A stretch of 27,415 nucleotides of DNA, from the IMG/VR virus record IMGVR_UViG_3300020468_000060, positions 1-27,415 of that record; one strand, written 5' to 3'. The notes under the pieces were generated by a model that was not told the origin of the DNA, ran no database searches, and saw only the letters and a list, made by a program, of their open reading frames with translations. Source of the stretch: a virus. Numbering within the stretch: the first letter of the stretch is position 1; the number at the start of each line of letters is the position of its first letter. Of this stretch, positions 13,329-23,784 are shown piece after piece. A program made the position numbers and the translations under genes.

Positions 13329-14088
13329 AAAGGGTTGGATAGAACATTCGTACAAATTAGAAGGTGGACAAACTAAATATCAAAACCAGAATTTTGTAGT
13401 TGGGACACAGATAACACCATTTAAAAAAGTACAGCAAGCATTGCTAGAACTACAGTCTAGAGACAACACTAGAGTGGAGTTACAGTATCGTCTTGACAAG
13501 AACGCTATTGATATTAAAAAACTCAATAGACAATTAAAACTGGCGACTGATCCTTTAGATAAGGAAATGGTTGAAGTTGAAATTGAGAAAGCTCACTACG
13601 ATAGAACTATCTGGGAGCAAAAAGTTTTAGTATGTAAACGAGAGATTGCTAACTTTACAGGTCAGTTGGAAGAGATGGTAGACAAATCTAAAGGAGTAGA
13701 GTATTATCTAGATACCAATGAGGAGGAAGATAAGAAATACTGGATCAGTCGTATGGCAAAACAAGCTGCTTGCGATATGATTTCTTTTGGACACGTTGGC
13801 ACTGGTAACATGGATTCTATTATGAATCTACCTCCTGATGATCAAGTCCAAGTCTTATCTGGAGCTGTACACCACTCTGCTCTTATTGGAGCAGGAGTAG
13901 AAAAGATGAGACAAGCAATGGGTGGATCTGTTGCTAACATCATGGAGGGTGGTAAATTTACTCCTCCGCAAATAAATGGTTCTGAAATTACAACACCTGA
14001 GGAAACTAATCCTCAATTATCTGAAGTGAAACATGACATCCCCAAAGAAAAAATCCGTCTTCAGTCTTCCAATAAACCCAAAGATTGA
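13309..14088 (+). CDS. Hypothetical phage protein with central coiled coil (259 aa)
   Basis: The ATG lies inside the 3' end of the preceding gene (20-base overlap). Residues 40-130 are a long charged helix region (heptad-like, for example VELQYRLDKNAIDIKKLNRQ), then an acidic stretch EEEDKKYW, a small-residue-rich segment with GTGNMDSIMNLP and GAVHHSALIGAGVEKMRQAMGG, and a Pro/Thr/Glu-rich tail. No catalytic motif is visible. The His pair and Gly-rich segment could be structural. The 3' end overlaps the U32-methyltransferase gene by 56 bases. Function unknown; an assembly or baseplate-linked role is a guess from context. Confidence 0.6.
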   Translation: MELSDSEKGWIEHSYKLEGGQTKYQNQNFVVGTQITPFKKVQQALLELQSRDNTRVELQYRLDKNAIDIKKLNRQLKLATDPLDKEMVEVEIEKAHYDRTIWEQKVLVCKREIANFTGQLEEMVDKSKGVEYYLDTNEEEDKKYWISRMAKQAACDMISFGHVGTGNMDSIMNLPPDDQVQVLSGAVHHSALIGAGVEKMRQAMGGSVANIMEGGKFTPPQINGSEITTPEETNPQLSEVKHDIPKEKIRLQSSNKPKD

Positions 14089-15817
14089 TTCGAGATATGC
14101 TGAGGATGTATTCATACCTTGGTTGAAAAGACATAAAGAATATATTGTTGACTTATACTTCACGTGTAGGATGCCTCCTTTTAATCAGGATGCTATGGGT
14201 GATGTATTTCAAGGTGACCCAGTTCAATTGTTTTATAATGCATATGCTATTCATCAAGAGACTGGTATACCATTATCAGCAACGTTCAATAATATCTACG
14301 TAAGACCAGACTTAGAACATCTGGATTTGTTTGTCAAAAATTTTAGGCAACTATATGAAGCGGGTGTCAAGATAGTAACTATACCACATACTAGTTGGGT
14401 TGCTACAGGAATCTTACAAAAAGAATTTCCAGAATTAAAGATTAAGAATACAATACTTAGAAATGTAAGTAGAGCAAATGAAGTTGTGTCTCTTGCGGAA
14501 GCAGGATTCCATTACATCAATTTAGATAGAGATTTGATGAGAGATAAGAATGCTCTATTAAAAATAAAAAAAGCAAAAGAATACTGTGCATCTATTGGCA
14601 AACCTGTAGAGTTATCAATTTTAACTAACGAGGGTTGTTGGGGTGGTTGTTCTATGATGGACGAACACTATCATTTCAATAGCACAAGAACAAAAGATAC
14701 TCCACAATACTTTATGGATCCTATCAGTACAAACTCTTGTGCTAAGTGGGATATAGAAGATAACTCTCACGCACTGAAAGCAGCTAATTTACCTCCTTGG
14801 AAATCAGATTGGAATGAATTTTTGGATCTTGGTATTGATGTATTTAAAATGCACGGTAGAGAAAATGCTATGAAACTCAAAGAGTCCATGGATATAATTT
14901 CTGCTTGGGGCAATGAAAAAATAGAAACAATGTTTCCAGAGTTTAATAAGTATATGGATGACCTTCTTGTAAAAGATAGTCCTATTGCTTTATGGAGAGA
15001 GAAGATAAAGACTTGTGGATTTGATTGTTGGGATTGCAACTACTGTGAAAATGTTGTTAATGCACATCTTAAAAAACAAGATAGACCTGTAGATATGGAT
15101 GAGTATGTACAGAGAGTATTGAATGCTATAGATGACGGTATGCAAGAGAACTCTAACTTCAATCCTGATGGATTTGAACCGATGGGATTAACTTCTAATC
15201 GTGTTAGACATTTCCTTAACAGTCTATGTTCTCACGAGGATGCAGTATATCTAGAACTTGGAACTCATGTTGGAAGCACATTCTTTGCTGCAACTATGAA
15301 TAATAATGTTAAGTGTATTGGAGTAGATGACTTCTCAGAGTCTAATGTAAGACCCCTGACAGACCATATAAGGTGGACAGAGGTTGGGAACCCATATGAT
15401 ACTCTAGTAAACTATTGGGAAAAGTATGAGAATGGTAATGCAGCATTTGTCAAAGCATCTATTGATGAACTAACAGAAGAAGACTTTGATGGTGTTAAAC
15501 CTAACATATTGTTTTATGATGCAAATCATGATATGATGGAACAGATGAACAACTTGAACCATGTTCTTCCATTCTTAGATGATCAGTTCATACTCGTAGT
15601 AGATGATGCCAACTTTGATGGTGTTGTTGAGAGTACAGTTACTTTTATACAAGAGAACCAGTTAGAAGTATTTTTTGAAAGAAGGATACTAAGTGGAGTC
15701 ATAGAGAATCCTACTCACTGGTGGAATGGACTACATGTTCTTGTTTTACGTAAAGACAAATTGATTAAAGATTATTTTGGTGAAGACAGAAATGCATCTC
15801 AGTTAGAAACAGTATGA
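14033..15817 (+). CDS. Peptidase-U32-like Fe-S domain fused to SAM-dependent methyltransferase
   Basis: 594 residues. Residues about 30-345 resemble the U32 family: an opening strand (VDLYFTCRMPPF), a (beta/alpha)-like core (VKIVTIP, FHYINLDRD, VELSIL), a cysteine motif NEGCWGGCSMMDEHYHFN (C202, C206), C236, and KMHGREN at 272-278 matching the U32 'K(I/M)xGR' signature. A second cluster CGFDCWDCNYC (C328, C332, C335, C338) follows. U32 proteins known to date are mostly Fe-S hydroxylases (RlhA, TrhP, UbiU/UbiV), not proteases. Residues about 395-575 form a class I methyltransferase: YLELGTHVGST (406-415), VDDFSES, FYDANHD (494-500) and LVVDDANFDG, in the style of the Methyltransf_24/O-methyltransferase group. 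The gene overlaps its upstream neighbour by 56 bases and its downstream neighbour by four (ATGA). The substrate is unknown. The methyltransferase call is strong; the U32 call is motif-based. Confidence 0.72.
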   Translation: MTSPKKKSVFSLPINPKIDSRYAEDVFIPWLKRHKEYIVDLYFTCRMPPFNQDAMGDVFQGDPVQLFYNAYAIHQETGIPLSATFNNIYVRPDLEHLDLFVKNFRQLYEAGVKIVTIPHTSWVATGILQKEFPELKIKNTILRNVSRANEVVSLAEAGFHYINLDRDLMRDKNALLKIKKAKEYCASIGKPVELSILTNEGCWGGCSMMDEHYHFNSTRTKDTPQYFMDPISTNSCAKWDIEDNSHALKAANLPPWKSDWNEFLDLGIDVFKMHGRENAMKLKESMDIISAWGNEKIETMFPEFNKYMDDLLVKDSPIALWREKIKTCGFDCWDCNYCENVVNAHLKKQDRPVDMDEYVQRVLNAIDDGMQENSNFNPDGFEPMGLTSNRVRHFLNSLCSHEDAVYLELGTHVGSTFFAATMNNNVKCIGVDDFSESNVRPLTDHIRWTEVGNPYDTLVNYWEKYENGNAAFVKASIDELTEEDFDGVKPNILFYDANHDMMEQMNNLNHVLPFLDDQFILVVDDANFDGVVESTVTFIQENQLEVFFERRILSGVIENPTHWWNGLHVLVLRKDKLIKDYFGEDRNASQLETV

Positions 15818-16524
15818 AAATAATTGATCCAAAGATATTAAATTCCCTACACCCAAAAGATTGGGAAGTAGAACAACTTCATATAGGTAAAGCAAAGAAC
15901 AGAGTTATTAAGATAAAAAATTTCTTTGTTAACCCAGAGCAAGTTAGGGCATACGCTATGGCAGCAGATTATGTATCTACTGTCGGTGGTGAGTTTTCTA
16001 ATTTGCCAGGTTATGTTTCTAGATTGGGACATGTTTCAAATCAATTATTACCTCAGTTTAGATTTATCTTAAACAATTATTTTGAAGCATCTAAGAAGGT
16101 AATGAAGGATCCAGAGTTCTCTCATTTTACATTTCAAAGTTACGAAGTAGAAAAGAAATGTAGAATGTGTAGTCTTACACCTCATACGGATGACACACAC
16201 TACGCTGCTGTGTTAGCATTAAACTATGATGAAGAAATGGAAGATACTGATAACGGTACTGCATTTTGGAGACACGCTGAGTATGATGAGGAGTTTGTTT
16301 CATCTGATAAAAATTATCGGATAGAACGGATAGTTAACAAAGTAAATGCATATGTTAACTTTGATCCATCAAAATACAAAACTAAACATTGGGAGAGGTA
16401 CCATGTTGAAAAACACGAATTCAATACTCTCCTTGTTTATGAAGGTAGAATGTGGCACTCGCCATATTTTAGACAAGAGGGATGGGATGTAGACCGCCTA
16501 ACCTTCAATGCATTTCTACACTAA
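15814..16524 (+). CDS. 2-oxoglutarate/Fe(II) oxygenase-like protein (DUF6445 type)
   Basis: 236 residues, start codon overlapping the stop of the U32-methyltransferase gene (ATGA), so probably translated from the same message. Core motifs: HTDDTHYAAVLALN (H124 and D126 as an HxD pair), GTAFWRH (148-154), a WERYHVEKHEFNTLLVYEGRMWHSPYF segment giving H215, and RLTFNAFL with R228. HxD...H with a distal Arg is the iron-binding facial triad plus 2-oxoglutarate anchor of the dioxygenase cupin fold, and the spacing and GTAF(Y/W)RH motif are as in DUF6445-like proteins. The N-terminal helix with FFVNPEQVRAYAMAADY also fits. The protein presumably hydroxylates or otherwise oxidises an unknown substrate. 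The family name is from memory and should be confirmed by profile search. Confidence 0.7.
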   Translation: MKIIDPKILNSLHPKDWEVEQLHIGKAKNRVIKIKNFFVNPEQVRAYAMAADYVSTVGGEFSNLPGYVSRLGHVSNQLLPQFRFILNNYFEASKKVMKDPEFSHFTFQSYEVEKKCRMCSLTPHTDDTHYAAVLALNYDEEMEDTDNGTAFWRHAEYDEEFVSSDKNYRIERIVNKVNAYVNFDPSKYKTKHWERYHVEKHEFNTLLVYEGRMWHSPYFRQEGWDVDRLTFNAFLH

Positions 16525-16548: not shown

Positions 16549-16734
16549 ATGGACGCTGAAACAATGGTGAAAGACTTCACCAATCAACTTAAGGAACAAA
16601 AAGCAACAATCGTTGAGATGGAAAAAGCACTTGCAACTCGTAAAGAACAAGTATTGAGATTGGAAGGTGCTGTTGAAGCATTACAAATGACACTAAAGAA
16701 ACCAGATGAAGAGGAAGTCGTTCCCGTCGAGTGA
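16549..16734 (+). CDS. Small coiled-coil protein (61 aa)
   Basis: The ATG follows a short 24-base gap after the oxygenase gene. The protein is almost entirely a charged helix (residues 8-50 with a heptad-like pattern, TNQLKEQKATIVEMEKALAT), followed by an acidic tail. The 3' end overlaps the next gene by 29 bases. It has the look of a short oligomerising or scaffold peptide. No family recognised. Confidence 0.6.
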   Translation: MDAETMVKDFTNQLKEQKATIVEMEKALATRKEQVLRLEGAVEALQMTLKKPDEEEVVPVE

Positions 16735-17047
16735 AGCTAGGAAACTAGAACACGTAGCATCAAGACAACCTGCAACAAAGTTTGATGGCACGTTGGAGAC
16801 CTGCCCCTACAAAGTAGGGGAGTTCTACGATGGTAGAGAAATAATATCAATAGGATTTACCAAAAATGTATATGGTAATTACTATCATATCATAGTGGAA
16901 AGAAATAGAACCCATCTCAGGACTAAATTTGAGTTTGATGAAAAACACGACTTAAAGTTTGTGAAACCTGTTGAAACGATGATGGAATCTGTAAGAGAAG
17001 CAGAGGTTCAGAAACTATTAGCAAAGGCAAACGACAGTAGTACATAA
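16706..17047 (+). CDS. Small hypothetical beta-rich protein (113 aa)
   Basis: Overlaps the preceding coiled-coil gene by 29 bases in a different frame. After a basic N-terminal segment (about 1-20, possibly a late start or poorly conserved) it has a compact beta-type core: CPYKVGEFYDGREIISIGF, then NYYHIIVERN and LRTKFEFDEK, ending in a helix (ESVREAEVQKLLAKAN). No catalytic motif is recognised. The strong hairpin at 16804-16820 lies within its coding sequence. The stop codon overlaps a late-promoter-like site for the subtilase gene. Confidence 0.6.
   Translation: MKRKSFPSSEARKLEHVASRQPATKFDGTLETCPYKVGEFYDGREIISIGFTKNVYGNYYHIIVERNRTHLRTKFEFDEKHDLKFVKPVETMMESVREAEVQKLLAKANDSST
16804..16820. 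other. Perfect 7-bp inverted repeat (CCCCTAC-AAA-GTAGGGG)
   Basis: The arms CCCCTAC and GTAGGGG are separated by three bases and lie inside the 113-residue gene. The downstream bases (AGTTCT) hold no T-run, so this is not a classical Rho-independent terminator. It could form an mRNA hairpin within the coding sequence, in unusually GC-rich local sequence. Confidence 0.5.
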
Positions 17048-17050
17048 ATA
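17043..17050 (+). promoter_or_regulatory. Probable T4-type late promoter (CATAAATA)
   Basis: CATAAATA matches the T4 late -10 consensus TATAAATA at seven of eight positions. It overlaps the preceding stop (TAA at 17045-17047) and ends 28 bases before the subtilase ATG, a usual late-leader distance. A purine-rich GAAGGA lies between them. Confidence 0.55.
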
Positions 17051-17078: not shown

Positions 17079-20000
17079 ATGAAGAGGGTAATAGTAAGGG
17101 TCAGTGATAACTATAGTCTAGATTCTGCAACGTCAGCAATCTTGAAATTATATGGTTACTTAACCTTTGTAGAATATTTTAAAACTTTTTCCATAGTATC
17201 GTTTGATTGTCCTGAGAGATATGAGAGCGTTATCTTGGATCAACTCAGAGCATTAAATGTTGTTAAGAAAGCAACATGGGATGAGAATAGAATTTCTTGT
17301 AATCCAATACAAGAGTCTCAGTTAACAACTGTAACTAGTGGGTCTACCACTCTAAACTCTACTGGAGAAAACAATACAACTAGTAATACTAGATCCTTAA
17401 CAGGAAGTGGAACAGGTACAATATATGTCAAAGTAGACTCTACGAGTGGAAACGATTTGTTCGTATTTTCACAGACACAAGGTGGTTCATATACAACATA
17501 CGCAAACCAAACTGGTTTCTTAGACGGAGCAACATATACTTTTGATCAGAGTGATTCATCTAACGCTGGTCACCCAATGTTATTCTCTATAACTCCAGAT
17601 GGCACACATACTACTGGGGGAGTATCTTTCAATACAGGTGTAACTACATCAGGAACTGCAGGACAAGCTGGTGCATCAGTAGAATTAGTAGTAAGTTCTG
17701 CAACACCATCTATACTATATTTTTACAATGTAACTACTGCTGGAATGGGACGTTATGGTGCATCTCCAAACAAATATGGTACTATAAACATATTTGACTA
17801 CTGGCATTTAGATAGAATTACAAAACAAGATAGGCAATATTTAAACAGACAATTTAGTTACAGTCAGCAAGGTGAAGGTGCTGACCTATACGTCATTGAT
17901 ACTGGTGTAAGAGGAGCAAGTAGACCTACAGGTAACAACGCAGCATTACATTCTGAACTATATGACCCAAACTTTGTATCTGACTTAAACGGTACTACAG
18001 AACAACAGAACTATAGAGTATTCCAGTTATCACATTATGCTGGTGGTTATGGATCTAATAACGAAGATGACAATGGACATGGTACTCACTGTGCTATTTT
18101 GGCGGCTGGGAGAACTGCTGGCGTGTCAAAGAGATCAAAGATATATGCACTTAAGGCATTTGATAGTACATTATCAGCATCTTATACGAACATACTTAGT
18201 GCTTATCAGGCAGTTATAGATCACAACACCAGTGGTAATGCAAATTATAAAGGTAGTAATCGTCCAGCTGTTATCAACTCATCCTTTGGTCCTACTATAC
18301 CAACACAGAATTATCCTTACGTTGAATTAAATGACGCTGGTTCCGACAGTGGAACTGATGAAGAGTTATTAGACGACATTGAAGGAACTATATCAAGCAC
18401 ATACAATATTATTATTGTAAGGTCAGCTGGTAATGGATTTAAAAATAGTGCGGATGCCTTTGCAGGACCTATACAAGCAAAGTGTATTGCTGGTTCAAGG
18501 ACTGCAGGATATGCTGACAATACCAATGGTGGTATAAACAATGTAGATGCAAATCAAAATAAAGTATCTGTTGGTGCAACTGAGTATAATGATAGATGGG
18601 CAAACTTCTCAAACTATGGTGCTGGCGTAACATTAGTAGCACCAGGTTCTAGAATCTTAGTTCCACAATATGATTGGTTAGCAAACACACCTCAGACAAG
18701 TGCAAGTAACTATACAGTTATAAGTGGTACATCATTCTCAGCACCTTTAGTTGCTGGTATTGCTCTGGCGTGGTGTGGTGCAAATGGATACACACTCACT
18801 ACAAATAATTTAACAGGAACATTTAAAACTTTCTGTAGAACCACTGATGCTACTGGAGATATAAGAAAAGGTTCATCCACATACTATCCAACTAATAGTA
18901 TAGAAGATAAGAAATTAATAGACAATCCATATGTAACTTTAGCAGGAAATAATTTCTTAGAGATAAAGTTCAACCCTGCTGACTCTTCTCATTTCCTAGG
19001 AAATGTTGGTAAGAAATGTCAGTTGAGAACAACTGGATCTACAGCGGGATCTGGTGGTTCAGTATCAAACACTTACAATATAACAGTAACCGCACCTAGT
19101 GCTTCATATTACACATTAAATGGAACTGATAGAAATGGTAATGTTAGTGGTAACAATGCAGGAGTAACTATAAGTGTTGGAGATACATTAAACTTTAACT
19201 TATCAAACGTAGCGGGTAGTCACCCAACATACTTTAAAACAGTTCAAGGAACTGGAACTGGTAATCAAGTAAACACACCAGCTGCAACAGGACAAGGTGC
19301 CACTGGAAACTCTGTTCTATCATGGACACCAAACGCTACAGGAACTTACTATTATCAATGCTCTGCCCATAACTCAATGTATGGAGCTGTTACAGTTCAA
19401 TCAGCATCTGGTGGATCAGGTGGTATTACTGTTGGTGGTATAGATGTCTCAGGTTTAGCACAATCTGGATGGTTAACTATACAAGCAGAAAGTGGAGTTA
19501 ATAATAGTATTACTGTACAGAATAGTTCAAATGCTACTGCTGGTACAACAGGTGGTGGTTCAAATAATTACTTAGCACTAATAGATCCAGAAGCAAAAAC
19601 CCACGAAAGTATTGATGGCGTAGTCTATACATCAACTACATTACGTTCGCAGACAGATGCACAAGAAGCAGCTGGTACAGGTTCATATACCAACGTAGCA
19701 TACTACCCATTAGATTCAGGTGTTGATTTTGATTATTCAGGAACTGGTTCTACACTCACTAAAAAAATAGGTGCATTCTTCCCATATGTTGATAGCAGTG
19801 TAACATGGACAACATCCAGTGGTGCATTAAATGGTAGTCCATATGCAAACGGTGCAACTGTTAGTGTGCAATTAGGACTTGCTGGAACAACTTTTGCTAA
19901 TGAACCTACATTTGAAGCGTATACACTTAGTGGAGATGGTCTAGGTGCATCTGGATTGACATTCAATACTTCAACAGGTGAGTTATCTGGAACTGTAACA

Positions 20001-22967
20001 TCAGATTATCTTGATACTACCTTCAACTTTACTGTTACTGAAAACGTAACTCAAAATGCTCGTGCATACTCATTCACTACAACAGGAACTGGTGTTCTAA
20101 TAACTGTTACAGGAAACCCTGTATCTACAACAATAGAAGCTGGGGCAAATGTCAATGCTACCTTTGGTCCTGTTGCTGCTACAAGTTCTGATGGTTCTAC
20201 TATCTTATACCAGTGGGAATACTCAAGTAATGGTGGTGCTGGTTGGTCTAACGTAACTAACGGTGGTTTCTATAGTGGTGCAACATTGTCAACATTAACT
20301 GTAGATGATCAATACTCACTCAACACTTATCAGTACAGATGTAAGATGTCTTCATCAACATCTATTGCACCAGGCACAACTACTGCTGCAACACTTACTG
20401 TAACTCGTGTAATTACTGTAGACACACAACCAAGTAATTCTCAACCAATGGCACCCGCAGCTGGATCATTTACCACTGCTGCTAGTACAAAAGATGCTGC
20501 AACTGTTATATATCAATGGCAGATATCACAGAATGGAGATGGCACAACATACGCTGATATAGGTGGTGCTAATAGTACAACATATACTACAGGTAGTACA
20601 TCATACGACAATGACTACGGTGACTACTATAGATGTAAATTAAACGTTGCTGGTGCTGCTGAAGTATTCACTAATCCTGCAAGAAACTTAGTACAAAGAA
20701 CAATCAATGTAACATCTCAACCAGTTAATATAACTGGTGCAGTTGGTGGTACATCATCATTTGGTGTTGCTGCAACTACATCTGATAATGATGCAGGAGA
20801 CATTACATACCAGTGGCAAGTATCAATAACCTCTGGTGCTTCATGGTCTAATGTATCTGAGGGAAGTGGTGGTACAACAGTAACTTATACAACTCCTACA
20901 TTAACTACAGCATACGATTCTTATCAATACCGTTGTTTATTATCAGCAAATGGTGCAACAACTATACCGTCTAACGTTGCTACATTACAAGTAGAAACTG
21001 TAACTGTGGTTGTATCAACTCAACCAAACAGTGCTTCAGTAAATGAAGGTTCCACTGCAACATTCAGTACACTCGGTGATGTTACCATGGCACCTGTTGG
21101 TGGTAACGCAGCTTCATCATCATTCGAGACAGAACAATTTGATACTCCTAGTGGTGGTGGAGGTGGTGCTGCTGGACAGTCATCACATAGTCCTAGTGTC
21201 ACATATCAGTGGGAGCAATCTAATCATGGTAATAAAGTTATTAACGTTACAGTTGGAGTTGACACAGTAGGTGGTCAAGCAACAGGTGTATTTTACTTAT
21301 TTGGTTTAGAAAAACCTGCCCTTAGTGCATATAGGGGACACACTTTTACTTTTGATCAGTCAGATTCTTCTAATGCTAATTACAATAATCAACATCATCC
21401 ATTGATGCTCAGTACAACTTTAGATGGAGAGTTAGCTGGTGGAACTCATTACAATACAGGTGTTACCTATAAGTTGGATGGCGTTACTGTAACTATGGCA
21501 AATTATGTTAGTGGATTTGTCGCTGCTACTACTCGTCAAGTAATATGGAATATACCTAGCAGTGCGACTGGCACCATTTATTACTGGTGTCATTTCCATA
21601 CAGGTCAAGGTAATGCTTTGAATACAGCTGATTCAACTTGGAATACAGTTGCGGGAGCAACTTCTGCATCATATACAACTGCTGCAACTACATACGCTGC
21701 AGATCATCAAGACTCATATCGTTGTAAGATAGATGCTGTTGGAGCATCTGCTTCGGCATATACTAATGATGTTGATCTTACAGTTGTAAGAACATTTTCT
21801 ATTACTGCACAACCATCTAACACAACTGTTAACGAAGGTGGTACTGGAACATTCTCAGTATCAAGCACATCTAGTAGTGGAACTCCAACATACCAGTGGA
21901 ATAGATCTGATGATGGTGGAAACAATTATACTCAGGTAGCAGGAGCAACGAGTGCATCGTATACAACTCCAACAACCACGTTTGCTGCAGACAACAATGA
22001 CCGTTATACATGTACTGTATCTCTTGTAGGTTCATCTGCTCCTATCACATCTACATTTGCTTTACTAACAATCTTACGTGTCATATCAATCGGCACACAA
22101 CCACAAAACGTTGGTGTTATTGAAGGACAGACTGCAACACTTAACATAGTTGCATCAATAACAAGTGATGTTATTACATATCAGTGGCAGAAGTCTGTTG
22201 ATAATGCAGCAACTTGGAGTAATATAAATGGTGCTAACACAGCAACGTATACAACTCCCGCTACAGTTTATCCAACAAACCCCTCAGAACAATTCCGTTG
22301 TATATTAAGTAATCCAAATGCTACAACAGTTACATCGAATGCAGCAACACTCACTGTTAATGAGTCTGAGTTCGTATCTGCACCTAGTTCCATCACTCCT
22401 GTTATTGATACTGATACCAGTAAAACATTCTCTAGACAACCTGTAATCAATACATCAGCATATGTTGTAGAGTATTCTGGATCAGTTCACTTCTCTAGTT
22501 TCTGGAGAATAAGAAGAGTTAGTGATAACGTCACTGTGTATAACACAGCAGACACATTTGCTAGTGGTGATACTGGTAATAAAACATCTATCACTGTTCC
22601 ATCTGGAACTCTAGACTTTGATACCGCATACTCTGTACAGGTTAAATTTAGAGATAACGCTGGTCTTGAGAGTGCATTCTCATCAGCAGTAAACTTTACA
22701 ACTCCATTAGTTGATCAACCAGATATACAAACTATTACACCAGCATTCAACCCAACAATAAATGTTGCTAGTATACAGATGAAGACTGGTTACACACATT
22801 CATCTAGTGATTGGCAATTTTCTCCTGCAAATACCTTTGCAACTATCGTTCACCAATCTCTTGGTAACTCAACAAACTTACTATCTTATACCTTACCTGG
22901 TGCAGTAAACTTAAGTGCTAATACTACATACTATGTAAGAATTAGATTCAACATCAATCCTACCTAA
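17079..22967 (+). CDS. Virion-type subtilisin-like serine protease with cupredoxin and Ig domains
   Basis: 1962 residues. Residues 1-75 resemble a subtilase inhibitor-I9 prodomain. A cupredoxin-like domain (112-225) sits between it and the S8 catalytic domain (about 235-580). The triad is intact: D274 in YVIDTG, H334 in NGHGTHC, S552 in SGTSFSAP, with oxyanion N452 in RSAGNG. Then come a copper-type cupredoxin (664-775; H715, C761, H764, M767), a linker, a putative-Ig segment (NTSTGELSGT, about residue 965), six Ig-like units (about 1008-1760) with a third cupredoxin inside the fourth, and two Fn3-like units to the end. No signal peptide is seen, which fits a protein assembled in the phage rather than secreted. 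It ends two bases before gp13. Likely a structural or tail-associated enzyme acting on cell surface, extracellular polymer or a phage precursor. The protease call is strong; the biological role is inferred. Confidence 0.85.
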   Translation: MKRVIVRVSDNYSLDSATSAILKLYGYLTFVEYFKTFSIVSFDCPERYESVILDQLRALNVVKKATWDENRISCNPIQESQLTTVTSGSTTLNSTGENNTTSNTRSLTGSGTGTIYVKVDSTSGNDLFVFSQTQGGSYTTYANQTGFLDGATYTFDQSDSSNAGHPMLFSITPDGTHTTGGVSFNTGVTTSGTAGQAGASVELVVSSATPSILYFYNVTTAGMGRYGASPNKYGTINIFDYWHLDRITKQDRQYLNRQFSYSQQGEGADLYVIDTGVRGASRPTGNNAALHSELYDPNFVSDLNGTTEQQNYRVFQLSHYAGGYGSNNEDDNGHGTHCAILAAGRTAGVSKRSKIYALKAFDSTLSASYTNILSAYQAVIDHNTSGNANYKGSNRPAVINSSFGPTIPTQNYPYVELNDAGSDSGTDEELLDDIEGTISSTYNIIIVRSAGNGFKNSADAFAGPIQAKCIAGSRTAGYADNTNGGINNVDANQNKVSVGATEYNDRWANFSNYGAGVTLVAPGSRILVPQYDWLANTPQTSASNYTVISGTSFSAPLVAGIALAWCGANGYTLTTNNLTGTFKTFCRTTDATGDIRKGSSTYYPTNSIEDKKLIDNPYVTLAGNNFLEIKFNPADSSHFLGNVGKKCQLRTTGSTAGSGGSVSNTYNITVTAPSASYYTLNGTDRNGNVSGNNAGVTISVGDTLNFNLSNVAGSHPTYFKTVQGTGTGNQVNTPAATGQGATGNSVLSWTPNATGTYYYQCSAHNSMYGAVTVQSASGGSGGITVGGIDVSGLAQSGWLTIQAESGVNNSITVQNSSNATAGTTGGGSNNYLALIDPEAKTHESIDGVVYTSTTLRSQTDAQEAAGTGSYTNVAYYPLDSGVDFDYSGTGSTLTKKIGAFFPYVDSSVTWTTSSGALNGSPYANGATVSVQLGLAGTTFANEPTFEAYTLSGDGLGASGLTFNTSTGELSGTVTSDYLDTTFNFTVTENVTQNARAYSFTTTGTGVLITVTGNPVSTTIEAGANVNATFGPVAATSSDGSTILYQWEYSSNGGAGWSNVTNGGFYSGATLSTLTVDDQYSLNTYQYRCKMSSSTSIAPGTTTAATLTVTRVITVDTQPSNSQPMAPAAGSFTTAASTKDAATVIYQWQISQNGDGTTYADIGGANSTTYTTGSTSYDNDYGDYYRCKLNVAGAAEVFTNPARNLVQRTINVTSQPVNITGAVGGTSSFGVAATTSDNDAGDITYQWQVSITSGASWSNVSEGSGGTTVTYTTPTLTTAYDSYQYRCLLSANGATTIPSNVATLQVETVTVVVSTQPNSASVNEGSTATFSTLGDVTMAPVGGNAASSSFETEQFDTPSGGGGGAAGQSSHSPSVTYQWEQSNHGNKVINVTVGVDTVGGQATGVFYLFGLEKPALSAYRGHTFTFDQSDSSNANYNNQHHPLMLSTTLDGELAGGTHYNTGVTYKLDGVTVTMANYVSGFVAATTRQVIWNIPSSATGTIYYWCHFHTGQGNALNTADSTWNTVAGATSASYTTAATTYAADHQDSYRCKIDAVGASASAYTNDVDLTVVRTFSITAQPSNTTVNEGGTGTFSVSSTSSSGTPTYQWNRSDDGGNNYTQVAGATSASYTTPTTTFAADNNDRYTCTVSLVGSSAPITSTFALLTILRVISIGTQPQNVGVIEGQTATLNIVASITSDVITYQWQKSVDNAATWSNINGANTATYTTPATVYPTNPSEQFRCILSNPNATTVTSNAATLTVNESEFVSAPSSITPVIDTDTSKTFSRQPVINTSAYVVEYSGSVHFSSFWRIRRVSDNVTVYNTADTFASGDTGNKTSITVPSGTLDFDTAYSVQVKFRDNAGLESAFSSAVNFTTPLVDQPDIQTITPAFNPTINVASIQMKTGYTHSSSDWQFSPANTFATIVHQSLGNSTNLLSYTLPGAVNLSANTTYYVRIRFNINPT
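17412..17753 (+). repeat. Cupredoxin-like domain A (prodomain side), ligand-poor
   Basis: Carries TFDQSDSSNAGHPMLFS (residues 154-170, H165), nearly the same as domain C, then a closing strand ILYFYNVTTAGMG where the usual Cys and second His are missing but a Met is present. Probably cannot hold type-1 copper; may be structural. Confidence 0.6.
19068..19403 (+). repeat. Cupredoxin-like domain B with full copper-ligand set
   Basis: Begins near TYNITVTAPSASYYTLNG; H715 lies in GSHPTYF, and the closing loop YYYQCSAHNSMYG gives C761, H764 and M767. This is the His-Cys-His-Met ligand pattern of plastocyanin-type copper proteins. Confidence 0.7.
20101..22360 (+). repeat. Six Ig-like repeats (YQW...YRC type)
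   Basis: Unit pattern: QP.....G..a.F, YQW..S..., W..(V/I)..A.S.(T/S)YTT, Y.YRC, ...LTV, about 95 residues. Starts are near 20101, 20403, 20700, 21000, 21790 and 22075. Each has a paired W and C as in Ig folds. Unit 4 is interrupted by cupredoxin domain C. Such arrays are common on phage structural proteins and may bind carbohydrate or cell surface. Confidence 0.75.
21235..21620 (+). repeat. Cupredoxin-like domain C, nested in Ig unit 4
   Basis: Contains TFTFDQSDSSNA, then QHHPLMLS (H1440) and a closing loop YYWCHFHTGQGN (C1504, H1507, Q1510). Gln takes the place of the axial Met, as in stellacyanin. The Ig unit resumes at STWNTVAGATSASYTT. Confidence 0.65.
22375..22964 (+). repeat. Two fibronectin-III-like units at the subtilase C-terminus
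   Basis: Unit 1 runs from TPVIDTDTSKTFSRQPVI to SSAVNFTTP; it has SSFWRIRRV and TAYSVQVKFRDNAG, a typical Fn3 'YxVxVxxxDxxG' strand. Unit 2 starts at PDIQTITPAFN and ends at TTYYVRIRFNINPT. The second unit stops right after its last core strand. Confidence 0.6.
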
Positions 22968-22968
22968 C

Positions 22969-23784
22969 ATGGCTTCCCCATCAACCAGACAAGGACTTAT
23001 AGATTATGCATTGCGTCAAAACGGTGCACCAGTCCTAGAAATAAACATAGAGGATGATCAAATCAATGACCTCGTGGATGATGCTATCCAGTTTTTTAAT
23101 GAAAGACATATGGATGGTTACATCAGAACCCATTTAAAAGTACAGTACAGTCAGTTGATGTTGGATGATATGACAACAGATACTGATACCACTGTAAGTT
23201 CTGGAACATCATCTGGTCAGACTGTCACATTCAAAGAGCAGAACAACTACATCAAGATGCCACCATACGTGACATCTGTTATTAAGTGTTTTGATTTTGT
23301 ATCTAAGAATGTCACAAACTTATTTGATGTTAGATATCAGTGGAGATTGAATGACCTTTGGGATCTTACACAGACAGAGATTCTTACATATGAAATGGTC
23401 AATAGAAGATTAGAAGATATCTACTATCTGTTAGAGGGACAGAAACAGATTAGATTTCAAAGACGTGGTGATAGATTATATCTTGATTTAGATTTTAAGA
23501 CTGATGTTCCTGCAGATCAGTTCTTAGTTCTCGAATGTTATCGTGCAGTTGATCCTACACAATTTGAGGATGTTTATAATGACGTATGGTTAAAGAGATA
23601 TGTGACTGCATTGATTCAAAGGCAGTGGGGTACTAACTTAATAAAGTTTCAAGGAGCACAGTTGCCAGGTGGAATTACAATGAATGGTGAGTTTATATAC
23701 AACGAGGGTAAAGAAAAGGTAGCAAAGTTAGAGACTGAAATGCTTACACAGTATGAAATGCCACCTCTAGACATGATAGGATAA
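22969..23784 (+). CDS. gp13: Neck protein gp13
   Basis: 271 residues, ATG two bases after the subtilase stop. The N-terminus (MASPSTRQGLIDYALRQNGAP, then VLEINIEDDQINDLVDDAIQ) is the conserved opening of T4-like gp13 proteins. gp13 and gp14 form the neck at the portal vertex, to which the tail joins after DNA packaging. T4 gp13 is about 309 residues; this one is slightly shorter, as in cyanophages. The gene is followed by gp14 with a one-base overlap (TAATG), giving the same order as T4. High confidence in identity, based on recognised sequence plus context. Confidence 0.92.
   Translation: MASPSTRQGLIDYALRQNGAPVLEINIEDDQINDLVDDAIQFFNERHMDGYIRTHLKVQYSQLMLDDMTTDTDTTVSSGTSSGQTVTFKEQNNYIKMPPYVTSVIKCFDFVSKNVTNLFDVRYQWRLNDLWDLTQTEILTYEMVNRRLEDIYYLLEGQKQIRFQRRGDRLYLDLDFKTDVPADQFLVLECYRAVDPTQFEDVYNDVWLKRYVTALIQRQWGTNLIKFQGAQLPGGITMNGEFIYNEGKEKVAKLETEMLTQYEMPPLDMIG

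Follow-up and report, generated by a model that had tools for sequence, protein, structure and literature searches.

A conserved subtilase with cupredoxin-like modules encoded directly before gp13 in a cyanophage related to P-HM2

The S8 gene in described cyanophages and in the window

A passage of Sullivan et al. (2010; PMC3037559) lists an "S8 peptidase (T4-GC518)" among 70 genes of the cyanophages P-HM1 and P-HM2 that all other sequenced cyanophages considered there lack. The number in that passage is off by one relative to the sequence records: GenBank numbers the S8 gene T4-GC 519 and its small neighbour T4-GC 518. The gene is therefore already known, its domain having been noted in 2010. 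In the records of P-HM1 (PHM1_104), P-HM2 (PHM2_106) and MED4-213 (CPMG_00018), three phages cultured on Prochlorococcus MED4, it lies directly before gp13 and is labelled hypothetical protein. Among the open-licence papers searched, PMC3037559 appears to be the only one that concerns a phage S8 protein.

The window analyzed here is an entire IMG/VR record of 27,415 bases. Megablast of its first 25 kb returned P-HM2, P-HM1 and MED4-213 (59-67% of the query, about 78% identity) and its gp13 is 91.5% identical to that of P-HM2, so we regard the window phage as a Eurybiavirus relative. Its host is probably the ocean cyanobacterium Prochlorococcus, judging from the cultured relatives. A preliminary description of the window had reported an intact set of S8 active-site residues (D274, H334, N452, and S552) within a 1962-residue gene directly before gp13, and we confirmed both observations. 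It had missed that the gene was known from P-HM1 and P-HM2, and had also overlooked the three cupredoxin-like modules, which are gained and lost among relatives.

The proteins of P-HM1, P-HM2 and MED4-213 share 67-68% identity with the window protein over the N-terminal 658-659 amino acids, but they have no module 3, and their module 1 retains the full set of four copper ligands. The 'peptidase S8' of S-BM3 (SBM3_00202, 2648 aa) resembles the window protein in its S8 domain (two pieces, 39% and 37% identical), its Ig-like region and its C-terminal part (40.6% over 441 aa), whereas no module separates its S8 domain from the small N-terminal domain, and its gene lies about 19 kb from gp13. The S-BM3 protease also carries a YHYH domain (PF14240, E=2.7e-37). 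More distant are 1251/1287-aa proteins of Agrobacterium phage Atu_ph07 and Sinorhizobium phage Phosso, which likewise combine S8 with Ig-like (He_PIG) domains but come from jumbo phages, are 25-29% identical over the S8 part and have no cupredoxin family among their Pfam matches. The Atu_ph07 gene lies two genes before a tail fibre gene, and tblastn with its protein gave matches in Bacillus, Xanthomonas, Moorella, Variovorax and other phages.

A search of genome_contigs with a single protein query, which finds close relatives only, returned one relative, a 7-kb contig (L092) in a Dehalococcoidia MAG that is 73% identical to the window; we take it to be most likely a mis-binned phage contig, and a host or bacterial origin of the S8 domain gains no support from this search. 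Two matches named Acinetobacter "phage MD-2021a" were not counted as phage. The one contig examined (L096) looks bacterial, encoding cysteine desulfurase, transporters and an I9-S8 protease.

Domains of the S8 protein

The 1962-aa protein matches phrog_27200 with 3075 bits (unknown function). The profile search proposed in the preliminary description placed Peptidase_S8 (PF00082) on residues 272-573 with E=1.3e-25 and 90.7 bits, above the Pfam cutoff of 21.8, and in a PDB sequence search aqualysin I was the best subtilase (E=8.7e-14), with proteinase K and relatives also matched. Conservation was assessed on 78 aligned N-terminal regions, from the window, P-HM1, P-HM2, MED4-213 and 74 IMG/VR loci (the best 80 of 129 confirmed relatives, minus six without a 5' end), a set that is biased to close relatives and includes near-copies. 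The four active-site residues are invariant in this alignment and also across 50 full-length proteins. Codon comparisons of the S8 domain between the window and relatives L006, L011 and L034 gave dN/dS of 0.10, 0.10 and 0.14; against L011 and L034, synonymous divergence had by then reached high values (pS 0.60 and 0.63). Judged by these sequence comparisons, the S8 part is a real enzyme domain under purifying selection.

Table 1. Features of the S8 locus in window coordinates
Feature	Coordinates	Strand	Remarks
Late-promoter-like CATAAATA	17043..17050	+	fits cyanophage late-promoter consensus NATAAATA
113-aa partner ORF, phrog_26228	16706..17047	+	nearest tested upstream gene in 64/72 relatives
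1962-aa subtilase / cupredoxin-like / Ig-like protein	17079..22967	+	ATG start, stop within end coordinate, ORF intact
Possible I9-type pro-domain, residues 1-72	17079..17294	+	suggested by model topology
Module 1, residues 109-230	17403..17768	+	block pLDDT 73-93 from residue 111
Peptidase_S8 catalytic domain, residues 236-585	17784..18833	+	ends approximate
Catalytic Asp274	17898..17900	+	conserved 78/78
Catalytic His334	18078..18080	+	conserved 78/78
Oxyanion Asn452	18432..18434	+	conserved 78/78
Catalytic Ser552	18732..18734	+	conserved 78/78
Module 2, residues about 656-780	19044..19418	+	PF00127 match sub-threshold (E=0.0075)
Ig-like repeats, six YQW...C units	20106..22373	+	ends approximate
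Module 3, residues about 1384-1517, within an Ig-like unit	21228..21629	+	sequence-based
C-terminal domain	22386..22967	+	only with this protein and S-BM3 protease
gp13 neck / head-tail adaptor	22969..23784	+	Ad2/gp13 phrog_211 E=1.6e-40

In the structure prediction, which had also been proposed earlier, the AlphaFold model has pLDDT below 60 over most of the S8 part, which may be because the underlying alignment contains close relatives only. Searched with this low-confidence S8 model, Foldseek returned subtilisin 1spb_S (E=1.0e-4) and VIA-align returned 4ov6_B (Z 13.1, rmsd 3.7, 197 aligned); the VIA-align list is headed by PCSK9 chains, and its rows, tied within 1 Z, indicate the S8 fold only. 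The domain resembles proteinase K and aqualysin-type subtilases in the order of its catalytic motifs, and its low-confidence model gives fold matches to subtilisins. Unlike them, it is embedded in a 1962-aa phage protein, its pro-domain is putative, and we saw by eye no N-terminal hydrophobic stretch or signal peptide in the translation.

Residues 1-72 were modelled as beta-alpha-beta-beta-alpha-beta (block pLDDT 58-78 up to residue 70), which is the arrangement of the I9 pro-domain. Neither Inhibitor_I9 (PF05922) in Pfam nor a propeptide in the PDB matched the N-terminal domain, and hhalign gave probabilities of 0.1 against one I9-bearing protein and 4.4 against the N-terminal domain of S-BM3; we did not keep homology to either. 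On topology, residues 1-72 are a possible pro-domain. Outside the N-terminal domain, S8 and the modules the protein is mostly Ig-like, and these repeats match the head protein phrog_613 and the Hoc-like phrog_4069. In the phage collection, the C-terminal domain was found in seven phage records, the same seven cyanophage records that match the S8 part.

Cupredoxin-like modules around the catalytic domain

The window protein has three cupredoxin-like modules. In module 1, the ligands H165 and M223 are present in 78/78 aligned proteins and C217 and H220 in 70/78. The window has two of the four copper ligands replaced (N217 and T220), and the same double replacement of Cys and His by Asn and Thr accounts for all eight exceptions (the window and L002-L008). 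Module 2 occurs in 32 of the 50 full-length relatives and is absent from 18; its ligands H715, C761, H764, and M767 form a His-Cys-His-Met set in 32/32. Module 3 was found in 15/50, with H1440, C1504, H1507, and Q1510 in the window; His-Cys-His is kept in 15/15 and the fourth ligand is Gln in 10 and Met in 5. One insertion point in the Ig-like unit is shared by the Gln form (window, L015) and the Met form (L011), which are distinct in sequence. Modules 1 and 2 were modelled as mostly confident beta modules (block pLDDT 73-93). A Foldseek search with the whole model ranked rusticyanins top (E=2.1e-5, probability 1.00; rows that give no model range), although with TM-scores by target of only 0.43-0.48; subtilisins came next.

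The 50 full-length proteins fall into length classes of 1700-1719, 1826-1840 and 1962-1974 aa, which correspond exactly to the absence of both modules 2 and 3 (18 proteins), the presence of module 2 only (17) and the presence of both (15). The catalytic triad is unchanged across all three classes. For 44 distinct rows, a tree made by a quick method (LG+G4) with the module columns left out requires 11 changes of module state, compared with a mean of 21.7 after shuffling, and the starred branches alone force at least four changes for rows without module 2. On this distribution, cupredoxin-like modules 2 and 3 behave as cassettes that are gained and lost.

Related modules occur in other cyanophage proteins. 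The best match of the Met-type module 3 of L011 was a piece of P-HM2 gp7 (55.6% identity over 99 aa). This baseplate wedge initiator (50959-51855 in its record) has, by eye, a module with His, Cys, His, and Met. The L011 query matched 152 phage records, all cyanophages by name, and among the matches listed (25 of 152) all align to the module part of the query. Of three other modules inspected by eye, those of ACG-2014d and S-TIM5 keep the His-Cys-His-Met pattern and that of S-RIM2 is without it. S-BM3 has a cupredoxin-like insert inside its S8 domain, for which Pfam Copper-bind gave E=0.32 only. In the literature searched we found no description of phage tail proteins whose cupredoxin modules behave as cassettes and keep their ligand sets intact.

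Gene neighborhood and the slot before gp13

The homologues beside gp13 that the preliminary description proposed to look for were found not only in P-HM1, P-HM2 and MED4-213: gp13 directly follows the S8 gene in 51/51 testable relatives, meaning those whose sequence covers the 3' end of the gene and runs on for over 150 nt. Counted from the final base of the stop codon, the gp13 match starts two positions on in 46/51 and four positions on in 5/51. Upstream of the gene, the window has a sequence that fits NATAAATA, given in PMC2984593 as the late promoter of S-PM2. Late-promoter matches in this window alone are not above chance. Across the relatives, ATAAAT lies 32-36 nt upstream of the start codon in 56/72 (a set that includes near-copies), compared with 3.1% of random 73-nt windows drawn from the same loci, coding or not. 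At that position P-HM2 has ATAAAT, and P-HM1, MED4-213, L048 and L062 (the latter two among the 72) have CTAAATA. The conservation of ATAAAT before the S8 gene argues for late transcription.

Further upstream, the 113-aa ORF has H16, C33, H61, H70, and H81 invariant in 35/35 aligned sequences; as to a role as inhibitor or chaperone we draw no conclusion, the model being too weak (pLDDT 69, pTM 0.47). It is overlapped by a 61-aa ORF (16549-16734) that corresponds in position to a small gene of P-HM2, PHM2_104 (T4-GC 517). A DUF6445 protein (15814-16524, E=3e-18) with the PHROG label minor coat protein and, in the fibre-gene region, a 594-aa protein (14033-15817) with a Methyltransf_24 match at residues 407-525 lie beyond it.

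In P-TIM40, S-TIM4, S-RIM2 and S-SM1 the gene before gp13 encodes proteins of 2301, 2236, 1912 and 1988 aa, respectively, all labelled structural or putative structural protein. They occupy the same slot as the window S8 protein and are of similar length, but start with Mtd_N and have no S8 domain: a Pfam scan of the P-TIM40, S-TIM4 and S-RIM2 proteins found Mtd_N at the start and no S8, and genome searches found Mtd_N without S8 in all four phages, S-SM1 included. Conversely, Mtd_N (PF18454) gave no match in the window protein, and the records of P-HM1, P-HM2, MED4-213 and S-BM3 contain S8 and no Mtd_N anywhere. These eight phages, four with S8 and four with Mtd_N, were hand-picked, and the mutual exclusion that holds in them is broken in 4 of 17 contigs that carry S8 and may each be incomplete, where an Mtd_N protein passes the cutoff elsewhere on the contig (a fifth has a weaker match). 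We therefore dropped strict exclusion. S8 and Mtd_N can thus coexist in one genome: it is the slot that is substituted, not necessarily the function. In S-BM3, gp13 is preceded by another virion structural protein, and ahead of the S8 gene lie gp8, a large virulence-associated gene and T4-GC_112; in S-SM1 the genes upstream of the slot are gp8, VrlC, T4-GC 112 and T4-GC 401, an order close to that of S-BM3. With T4 Wac (fibritin) and gp12 only the slot is in common, on what we take to be the T4 gene order; their family is absent from the Pfam and PHROG matches.

Possible roles of the S8 protein

Our best explanation, about as apt to be right as wrong, is that the gene encodes a late tail- or neck-associated virion protease acting on surface or extracellular proteins. 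The 1962-aa protein would be a late-expressed virion protein of a T4-type cyanophage like P-HM1 and P-HM2, taking the slot used elsewhere for a long Mtd_N fibre-type structural protein. Its small N-terminal domain may be a pro-domain, assisting folding and keeping the active site closed until it is cleaved off, and attachment to the tail or neck may come from the Ig-like stalk together with the conserved C-terminal domain. The protease would trim proteins of the host surface or its surroundings, either during adsorption or on extracellular material that the particle encounters. In this view the cupredoxin-like modules would be interchangeable add-ons (for binding, stability or metal) outside catalysis. 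This reading is supported by the invariant S8 set, purifying selection, linkage to gp13, the late motif, the slot and the module shared with gp7, and we also counted for it the S-BM3 gene order close to that of the S-SM1 slot, the Ig-like matches to head and Hoc PHROGs and the S8 plus He_PIG proteins of Atu_ph07 and Phosso. Counted against it were the distance from gp13 in S-BM3, the hypothetical labels in P-HM1 and P-HM2, the coexistence of S8 with Mtd_N, and the finding of no proteomic record of the S8 protein or its clade in the open-licence literature. The proteomics of Sullivan et al. (2010; PMC3037559) was done on S-SM1, and the further data cited there are from S-PM2 and Syn9, all of them other phages.

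The location in the virion is one that we infer from sequence. The preliminary description had argued for it from the missing signal peptide, an argument that is weak alone; synteny, the late-promoter motif and the shared modules are better ones. Its proposal of a phage-borne protease of the virion region agrees with the S8 enzyme domain, the late structural block, the Mtd_N slot and the module shared with a baseplate wedge protein. The idea that the enzyme opens the host surface layer was not kept: the nearest relatives in culture are phages of Prochlorococcus MED4, and none of our findings suggests an S-layer target.

The late-type S8 gene sits among giant fibre-type genes and its product has no export signal seen by eye, and a folded cytoplasmic protease would most easily meet phage proteins. 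The enzyme could thus be an assembly protease that processes itself and the neighboring giant fibre proteins in morphogenesis and has no extracellular role, which we consider rather unlikely. Head maturation in T4-type phages uses a different protease, gp21, and a role in prohead maturation was rejected, the protein being S8 and encoded outside the head genes, so that the idea survives only for fibre maturation. The fusion to Ig-like and cupredoxin-like domains is also more like a surface protein, and S8 matches are rare (7 cyanophage records, compared with gp13 in 463 records named Synechococcus, Cyanophage or Prochlorococcus). Cyanophages without S8 do assemble, but their slot then has a different protein, which leaves this alternative some room.

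Subtilases with Ig-like tails are mostly extracellular enzymes, and release by lysis would need no signal peptide. On this basis the protein might build up in the cell and, once freed at lysis, clear receptor-bearing debris, vesicles or matrix so that progeny are not trapped. The very tight linkage to gp13 and the module shared with the baseplate point instead to the particle, and we regard such a released enzyme as improbable. Some phage fibres reuse enzyme folds, but a catalytically idle S8 scaffold, kept only as a structural or binding unit, is very improbable given the four active-site residues in 78/78 proteins and, by eye in an alignment, in the S-BM3 protein and its three IMG/VR relatives, even though the S8 pieces of S-BM3 share no more than about 37-39% identity with the window.

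A bolder form of the virion-protease reading, unlikely in our view, has a virion-borne zymogen whose accessory type-1-copper modules (His-Cys-His-Met/Gln) would be exchanged as cassettes with gp7 at fixed sites, making the particles both proteolytic and copper-loaded. If this were true, copper might provide a redox or activation trigger on reaching the cell surface, or might be delivered to a copper-sensitive host.

New here are the gp13 linkage, the late-promoter conservation, the slot comparison and the module cassettes around an invariant triad; we found no earlier account of the slot comparison, the late-promoter conservation or the cassette behavior in open-licence papers. Little is known about the receptors of Prochlorococcus phages or the steps by which these phages enter. 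A conserved protease in a fibre slot would give a direct handle on entry, and would let one ask if cleavage by such phages is aimed at surface proteins, for infection, or at their own fibres, for maturation. Cassette-like cupredoxin modules in phage tail proteins would be measurable by metal analysis of particles.
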